Notes under the pieces: model-generated
What the model was told of the DNA's origin: nothing
What the model saw: only the letters and a program-made list of their open reading frames with translations
The model's database searches: none
Assembly (NCBI GenBank): GCA_902532525.1
Contig: CACAIK010000002.1
Location: 62,001 to 126,000 of the forward strand
Direction of reading: 5' to 3'
Source of the DNA: an uncultured Pelagibacteraceae bacterium
GTDB lineage: Bacteria > Pseudomonadota > Alphaproteobacteria > Pelagibacterales > Pelagibacteraceae
Length of the DNA stretch: 64,000 bases
Shown here: piece by piece, positions 25,856-34,486 of the stretch
How the letters are laid out: each line of letters opens with the position of its first letter
How positions within the stretch are numbered: the stretch's first letter is position 1
Translations under genes and position numbers: made by a program

Positions 25856-26230
25856 ATGGACGCAAAAGAAGTAGTTAAAAAAGGATATGAACTTTTTGGC
25901 AAAGGAGATATGGAGGGATTTATGGAAATGGTACATGATGATATCACTTGGATTTATCCTGGGGATAAGCATCCAATGTCAGGAACTCATAAAGGCAAAG
26001 AGGCATATATGAAAACCATGATGCAAGTTCCAAATCTTTGGAGTAATTTTTCAGTAACCCCTGATATGATGATTAGTGAGGGGAATAAAGTGTTTGTTAA
26101 AGCAACTGCTAAGGCAGATGGCATGGATACTATTTTTGGTCATTATTTTGAAGTAGGCGATGATGGTAAACTGACATTATTTATTGCGTTTGATGACACA
26201 CTAAGCATGTTCAATGCAATTAAGAAGTAA
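25856..26230 (+). CDS. SnoaL/NTF2-like small protein
   Basis: YELFGKGDMEGFMEMVHDDITWIYPGDKHPMSGTHKGKEAYMKTM. Confidence 0.8.
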   Translation: MDAKEVVKKGYELFGKGDMEGFMEMVHDDITWIYPGDKHPMSGTHKGKEAYMKTMMQVPNLWSNFSVTPDMMISEGNKVFVKATAKADGMDTIFGHYFEVGDDGKLTLFIAFDDTLSMFNAIKK

Positions 26231-26236
26231 TAGTTT

Positions 26237-26704
26237 ATGAAAAAATTATATTTTATTTTAATTTTCGTATTTATGTCGAGTACAGCTTTTGCTGAGCAAG
26301 GACAAATTAAACAAACTGGTTTTTTCTCTGGCACTTCTAAAGTTATAGGTGATGATAAAGGCAATTTTTCGATAATATATGAAGGAACTATTGGTAATAA
26401 AGCTATTGAGGGAACAACTTTTGGTGACAGATCTTCATCATATTGTGTTGGATCAATTGTTGGACTTAAAGGAAAAGGTTTTGAGACAGGCGTTTGTATA
26501 AACAAATTTGAAGATGGTAGTACTACAACAACACATTACGAAGGCGTAATGGGAAAAATATTAAGATGGAAGTTTGTAAGTGGAACAGGTAAATATGAGA
26601 ATATTTCTGGAGGTGGAACAACATCTTATGCGCAAATTGATTCAGCTAAAGATGGAGTTGTACAATCTTACAATCAAATCGTTGGTACTTATAATTTGAA
26701 CTAA
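26237..26704 (+). CDS. Secreted protein of unknown function
   Basis: Signal peptide MKKLYFILIFVFMSSTAFA; repeated Gly-rich beta pattern. Confidence 0.65.
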   Translation: MKKLYFILIFVFMSSTAFAEQGQIKQTGFFSGTSKVIGDDKGNFSIIYEGTIGNKAIEGTTFGDRSSSYCVGSIVGLKGKGFETGVCINKFEDGSTTTTHYEGVMGKILRWKFVSGTGKYENISGGGTTSYAQIDSAKDGVVQSYNQIVGTYNLN

Positions 26705-26717
26705 CTGAAAGAAAAAA

Positions 26718-27116
26718 ATGAAAAAAACAATTTTAGTATTAATTTTAAGTTTATTTACAGCTAATGTTTACGCAGATAGCCATGTAAAGAGAATTTTATC
26801 AACAAGTCAAACAGGAATGGGAAATGATATTGTATACCCTACAGGAAAAGCAAAAATAACAGCTTTTGAATTTACTGTACCCGTAGGAGCTCCAGTAACT
26901 CCTCATACGCACTCATTTCCAGTTCTAATTATGATTCAGCAAGGTGAAATTGAATTAATTCATGAAGGAAAAACCCAAGTATTCAAAGCTGGTGATGCAT
27001 TTGTTGAAGATGTTGGAATTGTACACGAGTCGAAAAATATTGGAAATGTTCCAGTTAAAGCGATTGTAGTTGCAATTGGTGTCGAAGGACAGAAAATTAT
27101 GACACCGGTAAAATAA
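26718..27116 (+). CDS. Secreted cupin-domain protein
   Basis: Signal peptide; GAPVTPHTHSFPVLIMIQQGEIELIHEGKTQVFKAGDAFVEDVGIVHE. Confidence 0.8.
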   Translation: MKKTILVLILSLFTANVYADSHVKRILSTSQTGMGNDIVYPTGKAKITAFEFTVPVGAPVTPHTHSFPVLIMIQQGEIELIHEGKTQVFKAGDAFVEDVGIVHESKNIGNVPVKAIVVAIGVEGQKIMTPVK

Positions 27117-27129
27117 AAAGGAAAAAGAA

Positions 27130-27420
27130 ATGATCATAAAAATAGAAGAAAATATAAAATCATTTTCATCTTGGATGAATATGGTAAAGGCGAATGCTGA
27201 AAAAATTAAAGGATTTGGTGCTACTATTATTTTTGCGGGTGTATCTAAAGAAGACCCTTCAAAATTTACTGTAATCGTTAAGTATGCAACCATGCAAGGT
27301 TTTGAAGCATTTAAAAATGACAAAGAACTTCATGCAGCAAGAGCTGAAGCAGGTGTGGATTTAGATTCAGCAAAGGTTACACCAATGCATGAAGATTTTA
27401 TGGAAAATTTTAGTGGATAA
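27130..27420 (+). CDS. Small protein, probable dimeric alpha/beta-barrel (DUF3764-like)
   Basis: 96 aa; overall pattern only. Confidence 0.55.
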   Translation: MIIKIEENIKSFSSWMNMVKANAEKIKGFGATIIFAGVSKEDPSKFTVIVKYATMQGFEAFKNDKELHAARAEAGVDLDSAKVTPMHEDFMENFSG

Positions 27421-27447
27421 ACAATTAATATAAAGAAAGGATAAATT

Positions 27448-27738
27448 ATGGAAACAGAAACATTAGTCGTAGCTCACCTTAAAGAAGGGATGCTAGAAAA
27501 GTTTATGGGCTTTATGCAATCGGATGCTGGTATGGCAGAGAGATCGAAAGTTGCAAATGTATCAAAAACAATTGGAACAGTTGCACCTGACAAAAAAACA
27601 GTAATGTTTAAAATTTTTGTGACCGATAAAGCTGCTCTAAAAGCGTTTATAGATGGAAGCAATCCAGTATCAGCTCCTGTTATGAAAGAAGTTATGGAGA
27701 GTTACAGTGTCTACGAATTAAATAAAGTAGATATGTAA
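27448..27738 (+). CDS. Small protein, probable dimeric alpha/beta-barrel (ABM/DUF3764-like)
   Basis: 96 aa; weak visible resemblance to the preceding ORF around PDKKTVMFKIFVTDKAALKAFI. Confidence 0.5.
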   Translation: METETLVVAHLKEGMLEKFMGFMQSDAGMAERSKVANVSKTIGTVAPDKKTVMFKIFVTDKAALKAFIDGSNPVSAPVMKEVMESYSVYELNKVDM

Positions 27739-27761
27739 TAATTTTTGTAATAAGGTTTGTA

Positions 27762-28052
27762 ATGCCTTCAGGATATATCATATTAAATATTAATGTGTTA
27801 AATCCTGAAAATTACAAAGAGTATTTGGAAAAAGCTCCTCCAACTGCTCAAATGTTTGGTGGAGAATACATTATAAGAGGTGGCGAAAATGAAGTCATTG
27901 AAGGTGAGTGGAAATATCCAAGAACTGTTGTAATTAAATTCCCATCTTATGAAAAAGTTTTTGAGTGGTACAATTCAGAAATATATAAACCTATCAGACA
28001 GATTAGATTAGATAATACTGTATCAAATACATTAATAATTAAAGGAGCATAA
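27762..28052 (+). CDS. DUF1330 family protein
   Basis: GYIILNINVLNPENYKEYLEKAPPTAQMFGGEYIIRGGENEVIEGEWKYPRTVVIKFPS. Confidence 0.8.
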   Translation: MPSGYIILNINVLNPENYKEYLEKAPPTAQMFGGEYIIRGGENEVIEGEWKYPRTVVIKFPSYEKVFEWYNSEIYKPIRQIRLDNTVSNTLIIKGA

Positions 28053-28064
28053 AGGAGAAAAAAA

Positions 28065-28385
28065 ATGTCAATATTAGAAAAATATAGTGCTGCAATTAAA
28101 AATAAAGATGAAGCAGCAATGAATGAACTTTTGCATGATGATTTTAAATTCACAATGCATAAATCAGGGAGTGTTTTAACTAAAAGTGATGTTATCAAAT
28201 GGGCAATGAGTGGTGACATTAAGCAAGATAAAACTAGAATTGTTTATGAAAATGATGAAGTTGGTGTTCACCATGCGTTTGTAACATTTGATGATGGTAA
28301 TGTAGAAGCAGTTATGGCAGTCTACAAATACAAAGATGGCAAAATGATTAGTTTAGAAACTGGCGCAACGCCAATGCCAAAATAA
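28065..28385 (+). CDS. SnoaL/NTF2-like small protein
   Basis: YSAAIKNKDEAAMNELLHDDFKFTMHKSGSVLTKSDVIKWA. Confidence 0.78.
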   Translation: MSILEKYSAAIKNKDEAAMNELLHDDFKFTMHKSGSVLTKSDVIKWAMSGDIKQDKTRIVYENDEVGVHHAFVTFDDGNVEAVMAVYKYKDGKMISLETGATPMPK

Positions 28386-28982
28386 GTGAACAACATAGAT
28401 TTTTATTTTTCTATTGGAAGTACTTATACTTATCTTTCGGTTACTCGAGCATTAGAAGCAGAAAAACAACATCAAATTAAGTTTAACTGGACTCCTTTTA
28501 GTGTGAGAGCAATAATGAAAGAAATGAACAATGTTCCGTTTCCTAAAGAAAAAAAAAATAAAGTAGATTACATGTGGAGGGACATAGAAAGACGAGCAAA
28601 AAATTATGGATTTTTTGCTAAAACACCAGTCCCTTACCCTTTAACAGAATTTGATTTAGCTAATAAAATTGCAATATTAGGCTTAAAAAATAACTGGGGT
28701 GTAGATTACGTTCAGCTTACGTATAAAAGATGGTTTCAAGAAGGAAAAGAGCCTGCTGTTGAACCCAACTTGAGTGAAATCTGCGAAAAACTAAACTTAG
28801 ATAAAGAAAAGATTGTTTCAGAGGCAAGCTCTGAGGAAATAAATAATATTTATTTATCAAATACAGAAAAAGCTAGAAAAAATAAAATATTTGGAAGTCC
28901 GTCATTTGTTGTAAAAAATGAAATATTCTGGGGAGATGATAGAATGGAAGATGCAATCAAATGGTCGAAGGCAAATGAATAA
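28386..28982 (+). CDS. 2-hydroxychromene-2-carboxylate isomerase / kappa-GST-like DsbA family protein
   Basis: GTG start; IDFYFSIGSTYTYLS with Ser at the active-site position, IFGSPSFVVKNEIFWGDDRMEDAI. Confidence 0.8.
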   Translation: MNNIDFYFSIGSTYTYLSVTRALEAEKQHQIKFNWTPFSVRAIMKEMNNVPFPKEKKNKVDYMWRDIERRAKNYGFFAKTPVPYPLTEFDLANKIAILGLKNNWGVDYVQLTYKRWFQEGKEPAVEPNLSEICEKLNLDKEKIVSEASSEEINNIYLSNTEKARKNKIFGSPSFVVKNEIFWGDDRMEDAIKWSKANE

Positions 28983-29310
28983 TATAACTGCTTATATAAT
29001 TTTATTAATCGCAGTAATTCTTGGAACAGCATCTAACAGTTTTGCTAAAAGTGCTCAAGGTTTTACATTATTAATACCTAGTATAATCACAGCAGTAACA
29101 ATTGTTGGATGCATGTATACTTTGTCTTTAGTTATGAAAAGTATACCAGTTGGAATAACGTATGCCTCTTTTGCGGGCCTATGTATAATTGCTACAGCTG
29201 CTGTTGGTGTTATAAAATTTAATCAAGTACCAAATTTTTATACAATAATTGGATTGATTTTAATTATATCGGGTGTCTTAATAGTTAACTTATTAGGAAC
29301 AAATAAATGA
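28975..29310 (+). CDS. SMR-like membrane protein, subunit 1, lacking the TM1 glutamate
   Basis: Four TM segments; SAQGFT, IPVGITYA, ILIISGVLIVNLLG match SMR; ATG at 28975 overlaps the upstream gene. Confidence 0.78.
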   Translation: MNNITAYIILLIAVILGTASNSFAKSAQGFTLLIPSIITAVTIVGCMYTLSLVMKSIPVGITYASFAGLCIIATAAVGVIKFNQVPNFYTIIGLILIISGVLIVNLLGTNK

Positions 29311-29642
29311 AACCATTATCTGGTTATATTTATTTAGTATTAGCTATATCAACAGGAATTGCCGCAAATAGTTTTGCTAAAATTTCAGATGGATTTTCAA
29401 AATTAACTCCAACGATATTATCAATAGCTTTTATGTGTATAACTATGTATGGACTTGCAAAAGCTATGTCTATGATACCAGTAGGTTTTACTTATGCTAC
29501 TTATAGTGGGATAACAGTGGCTGCTATTTTAGTTTTCGGAATGATTAAATATAACCAGATACCAAATATATATGGTTTAATTGGGATTTTTTTAATTATT
29601 ATTGGCGTTGTAATGGTTAATTATCTTGGAAGAATTAATTAG
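29307..29642 (+). CDS. SMR-like membrane protein, subunit 2, lacking the TM1 glutamate
   Basis: Four TM segments; ISDGFSKL, IPVGFTYATYSG, IIGVVMVNYLG; 4-nt ATGA overlap with subunit 1. Confidence 0.78.
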   Translation: MKPLSGYIYLVLAISTGIAANSFAKISDGFSKLTPTILSIAFMCITMYGLAKAMSMIPVGFTYATYSGITVAAILVFGMIKYNQIPNIYGLIGIFLIIIGVVMVNYLGRIN

Positions 29643-30538
29643 CTCTTATTAAGTAATAAAATTAGTACACCTACTACAAATATAATTATCCCTAAAATTT
29701 CTGTAATTTTGACTTTTTCTTTAAACATATACTTTGAAGACACATAACTAAATAATAATTCTATTTGGCCGATAGCTCTAACAAATGAAGACTGTATTAA
29801 CGTAAAAGCATAAAACCAAGATAATGTTGCAAGAAATCCAGCTAACCCTGCTGTCAAACATTCATACTTGTTCTCATATAATTTTTTAAACTGCGACTTT
29901 TCAAATATAATTAAATAAATAGTAACTAATGTTGTTTGTATAACTAGACCAAAAAATAGTGTTGCTATAGCTTTTTCAAAGTTATTACTAAAATTTTCCA
30001 ATGTTAATGCTGCTGCTCTAAAATATACAACACTTAAACCTAAGAATAGTCCTGCGGATAAACCAATTAAAGTTGTTTTTGAAAATAAGTTTTTTAGAAA
30101 TAAACTTAAATCTTTAATCGATAATATAATTACTCCAATTGTAGATACAATAATTCCTGTTATTCCAAATTTATTTAATTTATCCCCTATTATTAAATAT
30201 TCAAAAATTGCGACTTGAATAACTTCAGTCTTGCTCAATGAAGTTCCAACTACAAAATTAGCAAATCTAAATAAATAGAGTAAAACAAATGTAAAAATTA
30301 TTTGGAAAATTGAACCTAATAATACGTTAAATATAAATTTTTTTTGACTTAGGATTTCAGGAATTACATTTAAATCTTGGAAATACAAAAAAAATAAAAT
30401 AGTCCCGAATGGTAACGCAAAAGCAAATCTTACATAAGTTGATGCAATAGTAGATACTTTTTGATTAAGTTTTTTCTGTAAAGTTGATCTAAGATTTTGA
30501 AAAAAAGCCCCAGAAATAGCTACAATTATCCAATTCAT
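29639..30538 (-). CDS. EamA/DMT superfamily transporter
   Basis: About 10 TM segments in two repeats; ILGIIIFVVGVLIL end. Confidence 0.75.
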   Translation of the reverse strand: MNWIIVAISGAFFQNLRSTLQKKLNQKVSTIASTYVRFAFALPFGTILFFLYFQDLNVIPEILSQKKFIFNVLLGSIFQIIFTFVLLYLFRFANFVVGTSLSKTEVIQVAIFEYLIIGDKLNKFGITGIIVSTIGVIILSIKDLSLFLKNLFSKTTLIGLSAGLFLGLSVVYFRAAALTLENFSNNFEKAIATLFFGLVIQTTLVTIYLIIFEKSQFKKLYENKYECLTAGLAGFLATLSWFYAFTLIQSSFVRAIGQIELLFSYVSSKYMFKEKVKITEILGIIIFVVGVLILLLNKS

Positions 30539-30613: not shown

Positions 30614-31603
30614 ATGAAAATCTTTAAAAGAATAATATTTTCTCTAATTTTCGTTTCTTTTGCCAGTGCAAGTTTGGCGGAAACAAAAATGAGAATTACA
30701 CTTCAATTACCATTAAAGGCTCACTTAGGTCAGAACCTTTTGGTATTTAAAAAAGAATTAGAATCAAGATCAGACATTAAAGTAGAGATTTACGACTCCG
30801 CACAACTTTACAAAGATAAAGAGGTTCCGCAAGCTGTAGGTTCAGGAGCGATCGAAGCTGGTGTTGCATCTATAACAAGATTTGCAGGAACTAATCCTGA
30901 AGTTGATGTTTTCTATCTTCCATTCTTATTTGATTCAGAACAAAAAGTAAGAAAAGCAACTCAAGCTGGATCTGAGATAAGAGCTATTCTTGATCCTGCA
31001 ATAGCAAAGACAGGAGCAGTTCCACTTTATTATCAAGCTTATGGATCAGCAATTATGTTATCCAATGGTGGTCCAATGAAAACTCCGGCTGATTTTAAAG
31101 ACAAAAAAATCAGAGTTTTTGGAAAAACACTTGGAGCTTTTGTGAGTTCTTTAGGTGGCAAACCAGCATTAATATCTGGATCTGAGCAATATTTAGCTTA
31201 CCAAAGAAATACTGTTGATGCAGGTATGACTGGTGTATCTGGTGTAAAATCTAGAAAATTATATCAAGTAATGGATACTTTAACAGTTACAAATCATGGC
31301 GATATCGAATTCGTAGTTGTTGCTAATGACAAATGGCTAAGCTCATTAACTCAAAAACAAAGAGACGCTATAGCTGAAGCATCAAAAGTAGCTGAAAAAG
31401 CTGTAAGAGATGACATGGCTAACATCGAAGCTGGTGCTTACAAAGAAGCAAAAGCAAATGGAATGAACATTGTAAACCTAAGTAGTTCTGAAGTTTCTGC
31501 TCTTAAAAAAGCATCGTCATCTGTTATTGATGATTACATTTCTAGAACAGGTGGAGCTGGTGGAGTTGGTGATCAACTTGTAAAAGCTGCAAACAAACTT
31601 TAA
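30614..31603 (+). CDS. dctP: TRAP transporter substrate-binding protein (DctP)
   Basis: Signal peptide; FKDKKIRVFGKTLGAFVSSLGGKPALI with the conserved Arg; followed by DctQ and DctM genes. Confidence 0.88.
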   Translation: MKIFKRIIFSLIFVSFASASLAETKMRITLQLPLKAHLGQNLLVFKKELESRSDIKVEIYDSAQLYKDKEVPQAVGSGAIEAGVASITRFAGTNPEVDVFYLPFLFDSEQKVRKATQAGSEIRAILDPAIAKTGAVPLYYQAYGSAIMLSNGGPMKTPADFKDKKIRVFGKTLGAFVSSLGGKPALISGSEQYLAYQRNTVDAGMTGVSGVKSRKLYQVMDTLTVTNHGDIEFVVVANDKWLSSLTQKQRDAIAEASKVAEKAVRDDMANIEAGAYKEAKANGMNIVNLSSSEVSALKKASSSVIDDYISRTGGAGGVGDQLVKAANKL

Positions 31604-31614
31604 ATCGTATAAAT

Positions 31615-31636
31615 ACCCCGCACTTAAGTGCGGGGT
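31615..31636 (+). terminator. Perfect 22-bp palindromic hairpin ACCCCGCACTTAAGTGCGGGGT then TTT, between dctP and dctQ
   Basis: Read directly; GC-rich stem with short T run. Confidence 0.75.
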
Positions 31637-31642
31637 TTTCAA

Positions 31643-32119
31643 ATGAATACCTACGACAAAATTGTAAAATATTCTGGCTATTTAGCTTCAGCGTTATTTA
31701 TTATGATAGGCTTTATAGTTTCTTATGAAGTTATCATGAGATACATATTTAATTCACCTACTATTTGGGTAAACGAAATTTCTCGATTTTTACAAATTTG
31801 GGCTACTTATTTAGCTTTAACTTATACTTTTCATAAAAATGATTTTATCAGAATAACAGTTATATATGACAAAGTAGGAGATAAAGGAAAAAAGATATTA
31901 GATTTAATAAGTGCAATATTCATTTTAATTTTTAGTGGATTTGTACTTTATTATGGATGGTTAATTGCTTATGACTCTCTTAAAGTTGGAAGAACAAGCT
32001 CTACAATTTTAGATGTTCCATCCTTTCTTACAGAATTTGCGATACCATTATGTTTTGCATTTTTGGTATTAAGAGTGCTTTTCGAAGTACCTAAATACAT
32101 CAAAGATATAATTAAATGA
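31643..32119 (+). CDS. dctQ: TRAP transporter small permease (DctQ)
   Basis: MNTYDKIVKYSGYLASALFIMIGFIVSYEVIMRYIFNSPTIWVNEISRFLQIWATYLA. Track start at 31628 (GTG) lies inside the hairpin. Confidence 0.85.
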   Translation: MNTYDKIVKYSGYLASALFIMIGFIVSYEVIMRYIFNSPTIWVNEISRFLQIWATYLALTYTFHKNDFIRITVIYDKVGDKGKKILDLISAIFILIFSGFVLYYGWLIAYDSLKVGRTSSTILDVPSFLTEFAIPLCFAFLVLRVLFEVPKYIKDIIK

Positions 32120-33387
32120 CAGTAGCAATAATCTTATTTTTGTTATTTTTTGTGCTTTTTTTAGGAGTGCCAATAGCATTTGGTTTAGGTTCTATAGGAT
32201 TGGGTTTAATGTTATTTGGAGATATTTCTCCTTTAATGATCCCACAAACTTTTTACAGTGTGGCAGATAACTTTATTTTATTAGCTGTTCCGATGTTTTT
32301 GATGATGTCTAATATACTGTTAAAAGCAGGTGTTGGAGAAGATCTTTTTAATTTTGCTCAAAGCTGGGTTGGAAATTTTCCAGGGGGTTTAGCTATAGCA
32401 ACTATAGTTTCTTGCAGTATTTTTGCTGCTATATCTGGATCATCAGTGGCAACTGCAGCAACAATCTCAACTGTAGCATTTCCTGCAATGATTAATAGAG
32501 GTTATCACAGAAACTTTACTTTAGGTATTTTGGCAGCGGGTGGAACTTTAGGGATTTTAATTCCTCCATCAATTCCAATGATTGTTTATGCATTTGTTGT
32601 TGAAGAGTCTGTACTAAGTATGTTTCTTGCAGGAATTGGGCCAGGAATAGTTTTAGCATTATTTTTTATTATCTTTTCAGTTTTTTACGTGAAATTTTTT
32701 AATAAAGAAGTTCAAAATGTATCCAGTACTTTGGAAGAAAAAATTAAATACACAAAAAGAGGTTTGCCAATATTATTAATGGCCTTCATCATGCTAGGTG
32801 GAATTTATGCTGGAATTTATACACCAACAGAAGCAGGTGGTATTGGTTTTTTAATATCATTTATCTATGTTGTGGCTAAAAAAAGATTAGATTTTAAAGG
32901 TTTTATCGAAGCTGGTTTGGAGACAATGAAAACTACAGTTACTATATTTATAATTATAGCAGGAGCTAAAGTTTTTGGTAAAGCAATTTCTCTTTATAGA
33001 ATTCCTCAAGATTTATCATCTTTCATAGTTACTAATATTAATGAGACTGGTTTATTTATACTTGTTGTTTGTATTACTTTGTTAATCTTAGGATTTATAA
33101 TGGAAACCCTGTCATTAATTTTAATCATGATGCCTATATTTTCGATTTCAATTGCTGCAATGAATATTGATTTAATTTGGTTTGGAATAATTTTTACGTT
33201 AATGATTGAGTGCGCATTAATTACACCTCCGGTTGGACTAAATATTTATGTTCTCCAAGCAATTGGTAAAGCAAAAATGTCAGAAATAGCTAAAGGTGTG
33301 ATACCTTTTGTCATCATAATGTTATTTACAGTATTTGTTATTTACTTATTCCCTGACCTAGCATTATATATACCTTTTAAATTATAA
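32116..33387 (+). CDS. dctM: TRAP transporter large permease (DctM)
   Basis: FAAISGSSVATAATISTVAFPAMINRGYHRNFTLGILAAGGTLGILIPPSIPMIVYAFV. Confidence 0.9.
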   Translation: MTVAIILFLLFFVLFLGVPIAFGLGSIGLGLMLFGDISPLMIPQTFYSVADNFILLAVPMFLMMSNILLKAGVGEDLFNFAQSWVGNFPGGLAIATIVSCSIFAAISGSSVATAATISTVAFPAMINRGYHRNFTLGILAAGGTLGILIPPSIPMIVYAFVVEESVLSMFLAGIGPGIVLALFFIIFSVFYVKFFNKEVQNVSSTLEEKIKYTKRGLPILLMAFIMLGGIYAGIYTPTEAGGIGFLISFIYVVAKKRLDFKGFIEAGLETMKTTVTIFIIIAGAKVFGKAISLYRIPQDLSSFIVTNINETGLFILVVCITLLILGFIMETLSLILIMMPIFSISIAAMNIDLIWFGIIFTLMIECALITPPVGLNIYVLQAIGKAKMSEIAKGVIPFVIIMLFTVFVIYLFPDLALYIPFKL

Positions 33388-33389
33388 AT

Positions 33390-34265
33390 ATGTTTTCAAA
33401 AATAAAATCAAAAGATAAAGCAGAACAATTAAGACAACTATTAAATGGACCAGAAATAATTGTAATGCCTGGATGCTTTGATGCATTATCAGCAAAATTA
33501 ATTGAAAGAGAAGGTTTGAAAGTTGGATTTATGTCTGGCTTCAGTGTTTCATCTACAAAGCTTGGTATGCCGGACACAGGTTTAATTTCTTTTTCTGAAA
33601 TGGCAGAACAAGTAAGAAATATATGCAATGCTACATCAATTCCAATAATATTTGATGGGGATACTGGATATGGAAATTCAGTGAACGTATTTAGAACTGT
33701 AAGAGGATATGCGGATGCAGGAGCAGCTGGTGTGATGATTGAAGACCAAAAGTGGCCAAAAAAATGTGGTCATACAAAGGGTAAGGATGTTGTAGATCTT
33801 GATGAAGCAAACTCAAGAATTAAAGCTGCAGTGGATGCAAGAGAATATGGAAATAAAGATATCTTAATAATGGCAAGAACTGATGCCATAGCAACTAGAG
33901 GATTAGATGATGCAATTAAAAGAATGCAATCTTTTTCAAAACTTGGTGTTGATATTTTATTTATTGAAGCTGTTAAAAATAAAGAAGATATGAAAAGAAT
34001 TATCAAAGAAGTTCCAGGTCATCATATGTTAAATTTGATCGAAGATGGTGAAACCCCATTATTAGAAATTAATGAAATAGAGGAAATTGGTTATAAAATT
34101 GCTGTAATGCCTCTAACCTTAATGAGTGCATCAGTAAAAACGATGCAAGAATGTTTGAATAATATGAAAAATAAAGTTTATAATAAAAACGTTTCTAAAT
34201 TTTCAGACTTAAGAGATATAGTTGGCTTCAACGAATATTACAATATTGAAGACAAATATAAATAA
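33390..34265 (+). CDS. Isocitrate lyase/PEP mutase family protein, lyase-type (KKCGH motif)
   Basis: DGDTGYGN; EDQKWPKKCGHTKGKDVV; MARTDAIATRGLDDAI. Confidence 0.85.
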   Translation: MFSKIKSKDKAEQLRQLLNGPEIIVMPGCFDALSAKLIEREGLKVGFMSGFSVSSTKLGMPDTGLISFSEMAEQVRNICNATSIPIIFDGDTGYGNSVNVFRTVRGYADAGAAGVMIEDQKWPKKCGHTKGKDVVDLDEANSRIKAAVDAREYGNKDILIMARTDAIATRGLDDAIKRMQSFSKLGVDILFIEAVKNKEDMKRIIKEVPGHHMLNLIEDGETPLLEINEIEEIGYKIAVMPLTLMSASVKTMQECLNNMKNKVYNKNVSKFSDLRDIVGFNEYYNIEDKYK

Positions 34266-34486
34266 TGTTTCCAAAAAAATTCTCTAAAATTCTTTTCGTT
34301 TTTTTTATGGGTTTAGGAATGAGTTTGTTAATGACCCTAATTATTACATTTATAAATACAGGTTATGATGAATTTTATTATAAAAGATTTTTCAAAGCTT
34401 GGTCTATTAGTTTGCCAGTTGCATTAGTTGCAACAACTTTTGTTGCACCGTTGGTTAATAAATTAGTGGAAAAAATTACTAAATAG
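34265..34486 (+). CDS. DUF2798-like small membrane protein
   Basis: Two TM segments; MGLGMSLLMTLIITFINTG...FFKAWSISLPVALVATTFVAPLVNKLV. Confidence 0.7.
   Translation: MFPKKFSKILFVFFMGLGMSLLMTLIITFINTGYDEFYYKRFFKAWSISLPVALVATTFVAPLVNKLVEKITK

Follow-up and report, generated by a model that had tools for sequence, protein, structure and literature searches.

It was found that two adjacent genes of a SAR11 bacterium, here named smrA and smrB, encode proteins that belong to the SMR family by homology and carry a glycine at the position of the central glutamate (Glu14 of EmrE, whose numbering is used below). The SMR family is the textbook example of a minimal proton antiporter, in which Glu14 is held to be indispensable, and the SAR11 bacteria are among the most abundant bacteria of the ocean. 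The replacement is fixed throughout a conserved family consisting of an A type (smrA) and a B type (smrB). Judging from the sequences, I consider it on balance probable that these proteins are uncoupled alternating-access carriers of a non-cationic or amphipathic solute.

The genes and their surroundings in the window (the whole stretch of 64,000 nucleotides analysed here) are summarized in Table 1. The genome, placed in Pelagibacteraceae by the closest named relatives, is 1.18 Mb in size and consists of 38 contigs. The DsbA-fold protein gene is a frequent but not universal neighbour of smrA, and the content of the small-gene run to which it belongs differs among close SAR11 genomes. On the other side, the EamA-type permease gene, the TRAP transporter set, and the PEP-mutase/isocitrate-lyase family gene are kept together in the closest genomes. 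A riboswitch upstream of the pair was considered and rejected, as the window has no Rfam match, and a scan for promoters and terminators gave a signal no higher than in shuffled sequences.

Table 1. Features of the smrA-smrB locus, in window coordinates.
Feature	Position	Strand	Description
Small genes between cysK and the SMR pair	25856-28982		SnoaL-like, cupin, DUF3764, DUF1330, DUF4440, and DsbA-fold genes
DsbA-fold protein gene (PF01323)	28386-28982	+	upstream of smrA; 8-base overlap with smrA
smrA	28975-29310	+	111-aa SMR protein of the Gly14/Asn18/Phe63 type; Asp, Glu, and His absent throughout
smrA codon 17	29023-29025	+	GGA (Gly); EmrE Glu14 position by sequence and alignment
smrA codon 21	29035-29037	+	AAC (Asn); EmrE position 18, invariant across the family
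smrB	29307-29642	+	111-aa SMR protein of the Gly14/Asn18/Tyr63 type; ATGA overlap with the smrA stop codon
smrB codon 17	29355-29357	+	GGA (Gly); EmrE Glu14 position by sequence and alignment
smrB codon 21	29367-29369	+	AAT (Asn); EmrE position 18, invariant across the family
EamA-type gene	29639-30538	-	convergent, tail to tail with smrB
TRAP transporter set and following gene	30614-34265		DctP-type TRAP set, then a PEP-mutase/isocitrate-lyase family gene
DUF2798 gene (PF11391)	34265-34486	+	small two-helix membrane protein; homologs elsewhere in SAR11 often adjoin or separate smrA and smrB

Membership in the SMR family is supported by several lines of comparison. Against the Pfam SMR family (PF00893; cut-off 23.7 bits), smrA scores 57.1 bits and smrB 67.9 bits. 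Both proteins are about 110 residues long with four transmembrane (TM) helices in their models, and the profile alignment to EmrE runs from TM1 to TM4 without a gap in either. The structures, predicted from SAR11-only alignments (pLDDT 84 for B and 71 for A), have EmrE and Gdx-Clo in the top rows of their matches, with Z scores of 13-15 over ~104-108 residues. In the superposition on EmrE the offset is a constant 3 (model residues 4-111 on chain residues 1-108); thus, residue 17 of smrA and smrB superposes on EmrE residue 14. The first-pass annotation had placed Gly opposite Glu14 in both proteins, and the profile alignment and the superposition agree on this assignment. It had also described TM1 as free of Asp and Glu, and neither the alignments nor the structures place an acid there. 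A misalignment of TM1 that hides an acid one turn off was rejected on the same gap-free alignments.

The subfamily was assessed with the profile search that had been suggested together with these claims. The best score against the NCBIfam Qac/Gdx subtype is 74 bits, below the cut-off of 160 bits, and the QacCGHJ profiles (70-74 bits) are the closest by profile. Defining residues of the Qac/Gdx subtype are missing, namely Glu14 (Gly in 153/153 sequences), Trp63 (Phe or Tyr instead), and the GXG fulcrum of TM3. The NCBIfam ArnE cut-off of 92 bits is far off, with 17.6 bits for smrA and no match for smrB. Since the defining residues of Qac/Gdx fail and the ArnE cut-off is so distant, smrA and smrB would best be regarded as an SMR subtype of their own, one without a name as yet. 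The label 'multidrug/QAC efflux SMR' for these genes is probably wrong.

Is the loss of Glu14 a sporadic mutation? Homologs were collected from genome contigs and by whole-genome searches at genus, family, order, class, and phylum level, and the conservation set comprises 153 distinct, classified SAR11 sequences, 86 of type A and 67 of type B. Gly14, Asn18, Lys22, and Tyr60, the last being the switch residue, are fixed in all of them (Gly14 with Asn18 in 86/86 A and 67/67 B), as the homolog alignment proposed at the outset was meant to reveal; every homolog in the Gly14 subfamily has Gly. Position 63 served to sort the two types: A has Phe there and B has Tyr. At position 67, where the GXG fulcrum is lost, A has Cys, Thr, or Ala, and B has Thr or, once, Gln. 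Gly90 and Gly97 are invariant in the family. TM2 carries basic residues, a nearly invariant Lys/Arg at 49 in smrB and an invariant Lys at 52 in smrA. The TM segments of A and B have no acidic residue, and 26 of the 86 A and 8 of the 67 B sequences are acid-free throughout; the only Asp of the window smrB lies in loop 1. The NSFAK motif that was described as common to both proteins stands in part: Asn18 and Lys22 are invariant, whereas position 19 may be Ser, Gly, or Ala, position 20 Phe, Leu, or Tyr, and position 21 Ala or Leu. In pairwise comparisons with the window genes, the median dN/dS is 0.094 for A and 0.155 for B. Both genes are under purifying selection and thus maintained. A sporadic mutation or a pseudogene is ruled out by this conservation together with the dN/dS values.

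The nearest relatives indicate where the replacement took place. A Glu14-bearing SMR paralog of SAR11, here called the C type (e.g. L183 and L162), keeps Glu14, Thr18, Trp63, and GXG. The first tree united A, B, and C in one group with a support of 100, and across the trees A and B group with the C type at 95-100. The three types share an NQ-x-PN loop. Identity to the C type is 42-46% (46% for smrA), and smrA and smrB are 44% identical to each other. The 12 nearest relatives in SAR11 invariably have Glu14 and Thr18, and 36/36 other SMRs compared also have Glu14. Beyond Pelagibacterales, Glu14 is present in the 28 best-matching sequences from the class search and in all 31 SMR sequences at the best loci of the phylum search. 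Since the nearest relatives are Glu14-bearing SMRs of SAR11 and the outside matches all have Glu14, the sequences place the replacement within Pelagibacterales. A and B lie on one side of a branch with a support of 99; without the diagnostic columns, the support is 82-88. In raw identity, smrA is no further from the C type than from smrB. A monophyletic A+B group is therefore favoured by the trees, and two parallel losses of Glu14 are possible given the reduced support. A phage origin was rejected because the phage matches are distant Qac/EmrE-type proteins with 30-37% identity. Several Escherichia phages (records H2-H12) carry such a distant SMR gene, with ~33% identity to smrB, and some of these are annotated as EmrE or QacE. 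Six loci (L183, L162, L175, L170, L157, and L153) carry the C type, which is specific to SAR11, retains Glu14, and offers a natural control.

The first-pass annotation had regarded the two proteins as a pair of subunits. The genes are indeed adjacent on the same strand in the window and at at least 71 loci, but some loci are arranged otherwise, and genomes with only A or only B exist. In a Pfam search of 28 genomes, in which the fetched sequences were Gly14 proteins, B was the sole SMR in nine genomes of the genus g4 (92-98% complete) and in G112, G140, G151, G197, and G004; the G140 genome is a single contig, 100% complete, with B as the only SMR found. A was the sole SMR found in G222 and G179. 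The Gly14 pair is thus not obligate, and a Glu14 partner is not needed in those genomes. Where a single Gly14 gene occurs, its product presumably forms a homodimer. Rescue by a Glu14 partner was rejected as a general explanation, since some genomes have no other SMR, although the window genome has an ordinary Glu14 SMR elsewhere (L001, contig C12). The K/R charge bias is near zero in both proteins (-0.28 for A and -0.07 for B), and the subunits show no opposite bias. This fits dual-topology proteins rather than an obligate pair of opposite topology.

The clusters around the pair vary by lineage, with SnoaL-like, DUF1330, cupin, DsbA-fold, and other genes. Because of these differences between lineages, the neighbours were rejected as a clue to the substrate. 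In the window, no gene of lipid or sugar biosynthesis adjoins the pair, and no such gene recurs in other lineages; the tested window neighbours include no genes of an arn-type operon. In another genus, smrA adjoins mtnA/mtnP-like methylthioadenosine salvage genes, named by eye from sequence (L103, L108, L148, and L150). The sole recurrent neighbour is the DUF2798 gene, whose placement varies: it lies no more than two genes away from 42/78 distinct A, 25/77 distinct B, and 1/41 other SMRs, counts that are non-independent because the genomes are related. The DUF2798 protein is a possible functional partner of smrA and smrB. The same proximity would suit the idea that the Gly14 proteins are no longer transporters, being either decaying paralogs or structural partners of membrane proteins such as DUF2798, and Bacillus subtilis YvaD is an SMR protein that is reported to have lost Glu14 and to be under little selection (PMC2716321). 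I consider this idea quite improbable, as the purifying selection is strong, Tyr60, Gly90, and Gly97 are invariant, and the genes are kept in minimal genomes, even as the sole SMR.

The claim that the pair is unlikely to be a canonical H+/drug antiporter has gained support, at the level of sequence, from the loss of Glu14 across a conserved family, from the carboxylate-free smrA, and from the literature: the central glutamates are essential in the Gdx, Qac, and polyamine subtypes (PMC9574504), and E14Q-EmrE serves as a non-functional control in published work (PMC9741644). With Glu14 replaced by Gly, the proteins probably move a cargo different from the toxic cations typical of SMRs, and do so without the usual proton coupling. 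It is very improbable that the proteins are still ion-coupled cation transporters in which Asn18, Tyr60, the backbone, a lipid, or Na+ stands in for Glu14; the SMR fold and Tyr60 are kept and the Qac-type families are the closest by profile, but smrA has neither a carboxylate nor a His to work with, and the Gln variant of EmrE is described as dead.

The favoured reading, an uncoupled carrier, can be put as follows. smrA and smrB would be four-helix carriers of the SMR fold, derived within SAR11 from an ordinary Glu14 SMR and probably working as antiparallel dimers, with an A-B heterodimer where both are made and homodimers where one gene exists. The machinery of alternating access may have been kept in the fold and the Tyr60 switch, described as fundamental for SMR transport (PMC9574504). 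The proton/cation site, in contrast, seems to have been swapped: Glu14 for Gly, Thr18 for Asn, Trp63 for Phe or Tyr, with loss of the GXG fulcrum. A pocket free of carboxylates would turn the protein into an uncoupled facilitator, i.e. a uniporter or a flippase, through which a non-cationic or amphipathic compound might equilibrate downhill across the inner membrane. Since the fold and Tyr60 are retained and the proton and cation parts are lost, the simplest mechanism would be a facilitator that is neither proton-driven nor cation-selective. The narrower proposal, that a carboxylate-free SMR clade outside ArnE/ArnF had its site replaced as a set and so became an uncoupled carrier of non-cationic solutes or lipids in SAR11, is offered tentatively, at a little below an even chance.

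In one concrete version of the uncoupled carrier, the proteins would be overflow facilitators of a streamlined cell, exporters or leak valves of low specificity whose cargo would be small metabolites that are neutral or zwitterionic. A pocket without any charge suits a neutral ligand, and the variable clusters of small metabolic genes around the pair, together with the mtnA-like salvage genes beside smrA in the other genus, would agree with such a role. The neighbours, however, change in every lineage, and I regard this version as somewhat unlikely. The other version, a strict lipid flippase that moves a lipid-linked sugar or a membrane lipid between the leaflets like ArnE/ArnF, is considered below; both versions overlap with the uncoupled-carrier reading and do not exclude it.

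If the uncoupled-carrier reading is true, SAR11 offers a recent and traceable case of a proton antiporter turned facilitator, with a likeness to the lipid-flippase SMRs at the very sites that were exchanged. A strongly conserved Glu-free clade that is widespread in SAR11, with a living Glu14 sister paralog in the same order, would allow one to study by which changes an antiporter becomes an uncoupled carrier. The probable mis-annotation affects a group that ranks among the most abundant of marine bacteria. A limited search of open-access papers found no prior description of a Gly14 SMR subtype.

How do the SAR11 proteins compare with known SMR systems? The ArnE/ArnF proteins, which form the undecaprenyl-phosphate-Ara4N flippase, are a precedent for the loss of Glu14 and may be uncoupled (PMC9574504). 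Lipid SMRs of this type, those of Escherichia coli included, mostly have a small or neutral residue at 14 and a near-invariant Gln18, and they lack Trp63 and GXG. The SAR11 proteins have in common with them the neutral residue 14, the amide at 18 (Asn in SAR11), Lys/Arg at 22 as a rule, Tyr60, and the missing Trp63 and GXG; the combination of a neutral 14 and an amide 18 is a pattern described in this analysis and not a curated definition. These matches at the replaced sites would speak for the lipid flippase, and so might Lys/Arg49 of smrB and Lys52 of smrA: they lie in TM2, the helix bordering the membrane portal (PMC9574504), where contact with lipid head groups is conceivable. I nevertheless consider the strict flippase unlikely, with lipid and sugar biosynthesis genes missing beside the pair and an identity to lipid SMRs of only 16-19%; ArnE/ArnF also differ in a longer loop 1 and in the arn genes, which are not near the SAR11 pair. 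Thus, of the link to ArnE/ArnF drawn in the first-pass annotation, the resemblance of residues holds and membership does not, given the ArnE profile score. In the AU test, a clade of A, B, and the lipid SMRs had a p value of 0.65, or 0.46 without the diagnostic columns. Convergence with the lipid SMRs appears to be the likelier reading and not a proven one, since the tree test is compatible with a common clade without demonstrating one.

With the Qac/EmrE proteins, the SAR11 proteins share length, four TM helices, fold, Tyr60, Lys22, and profile homology. They differ in having no Glu14, Trp63, GXG fulcrum, or C-terminal His, and in having Asn18 instead of Thr18. The C type differs from A and B in its K/R bias (about -1.9 against ~0) and in being the only one of the three with Glu14, Thr18, Trp63, and GXG. 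MdtI/MdtJ and EbrA/EbrB are likewise encoded by two adjacent SMR genes. Escherichia coli MdtI has Asn18 together with Glu14, and thus Asn18 alone is not diagnostic of a loss of coupling. In MdtIJ, Glu14 is kept in both subunits, whereas the SAR11 A and B proteins both lack it and also occur singly. YvaD resembles the SAR11 proteins as an SMR protein reported without Glu14. In contrast, YvaD is poorly conserved (PMC2716321) and lies with YvaE, while A and B both lack Glu14 and are strongly conserved.
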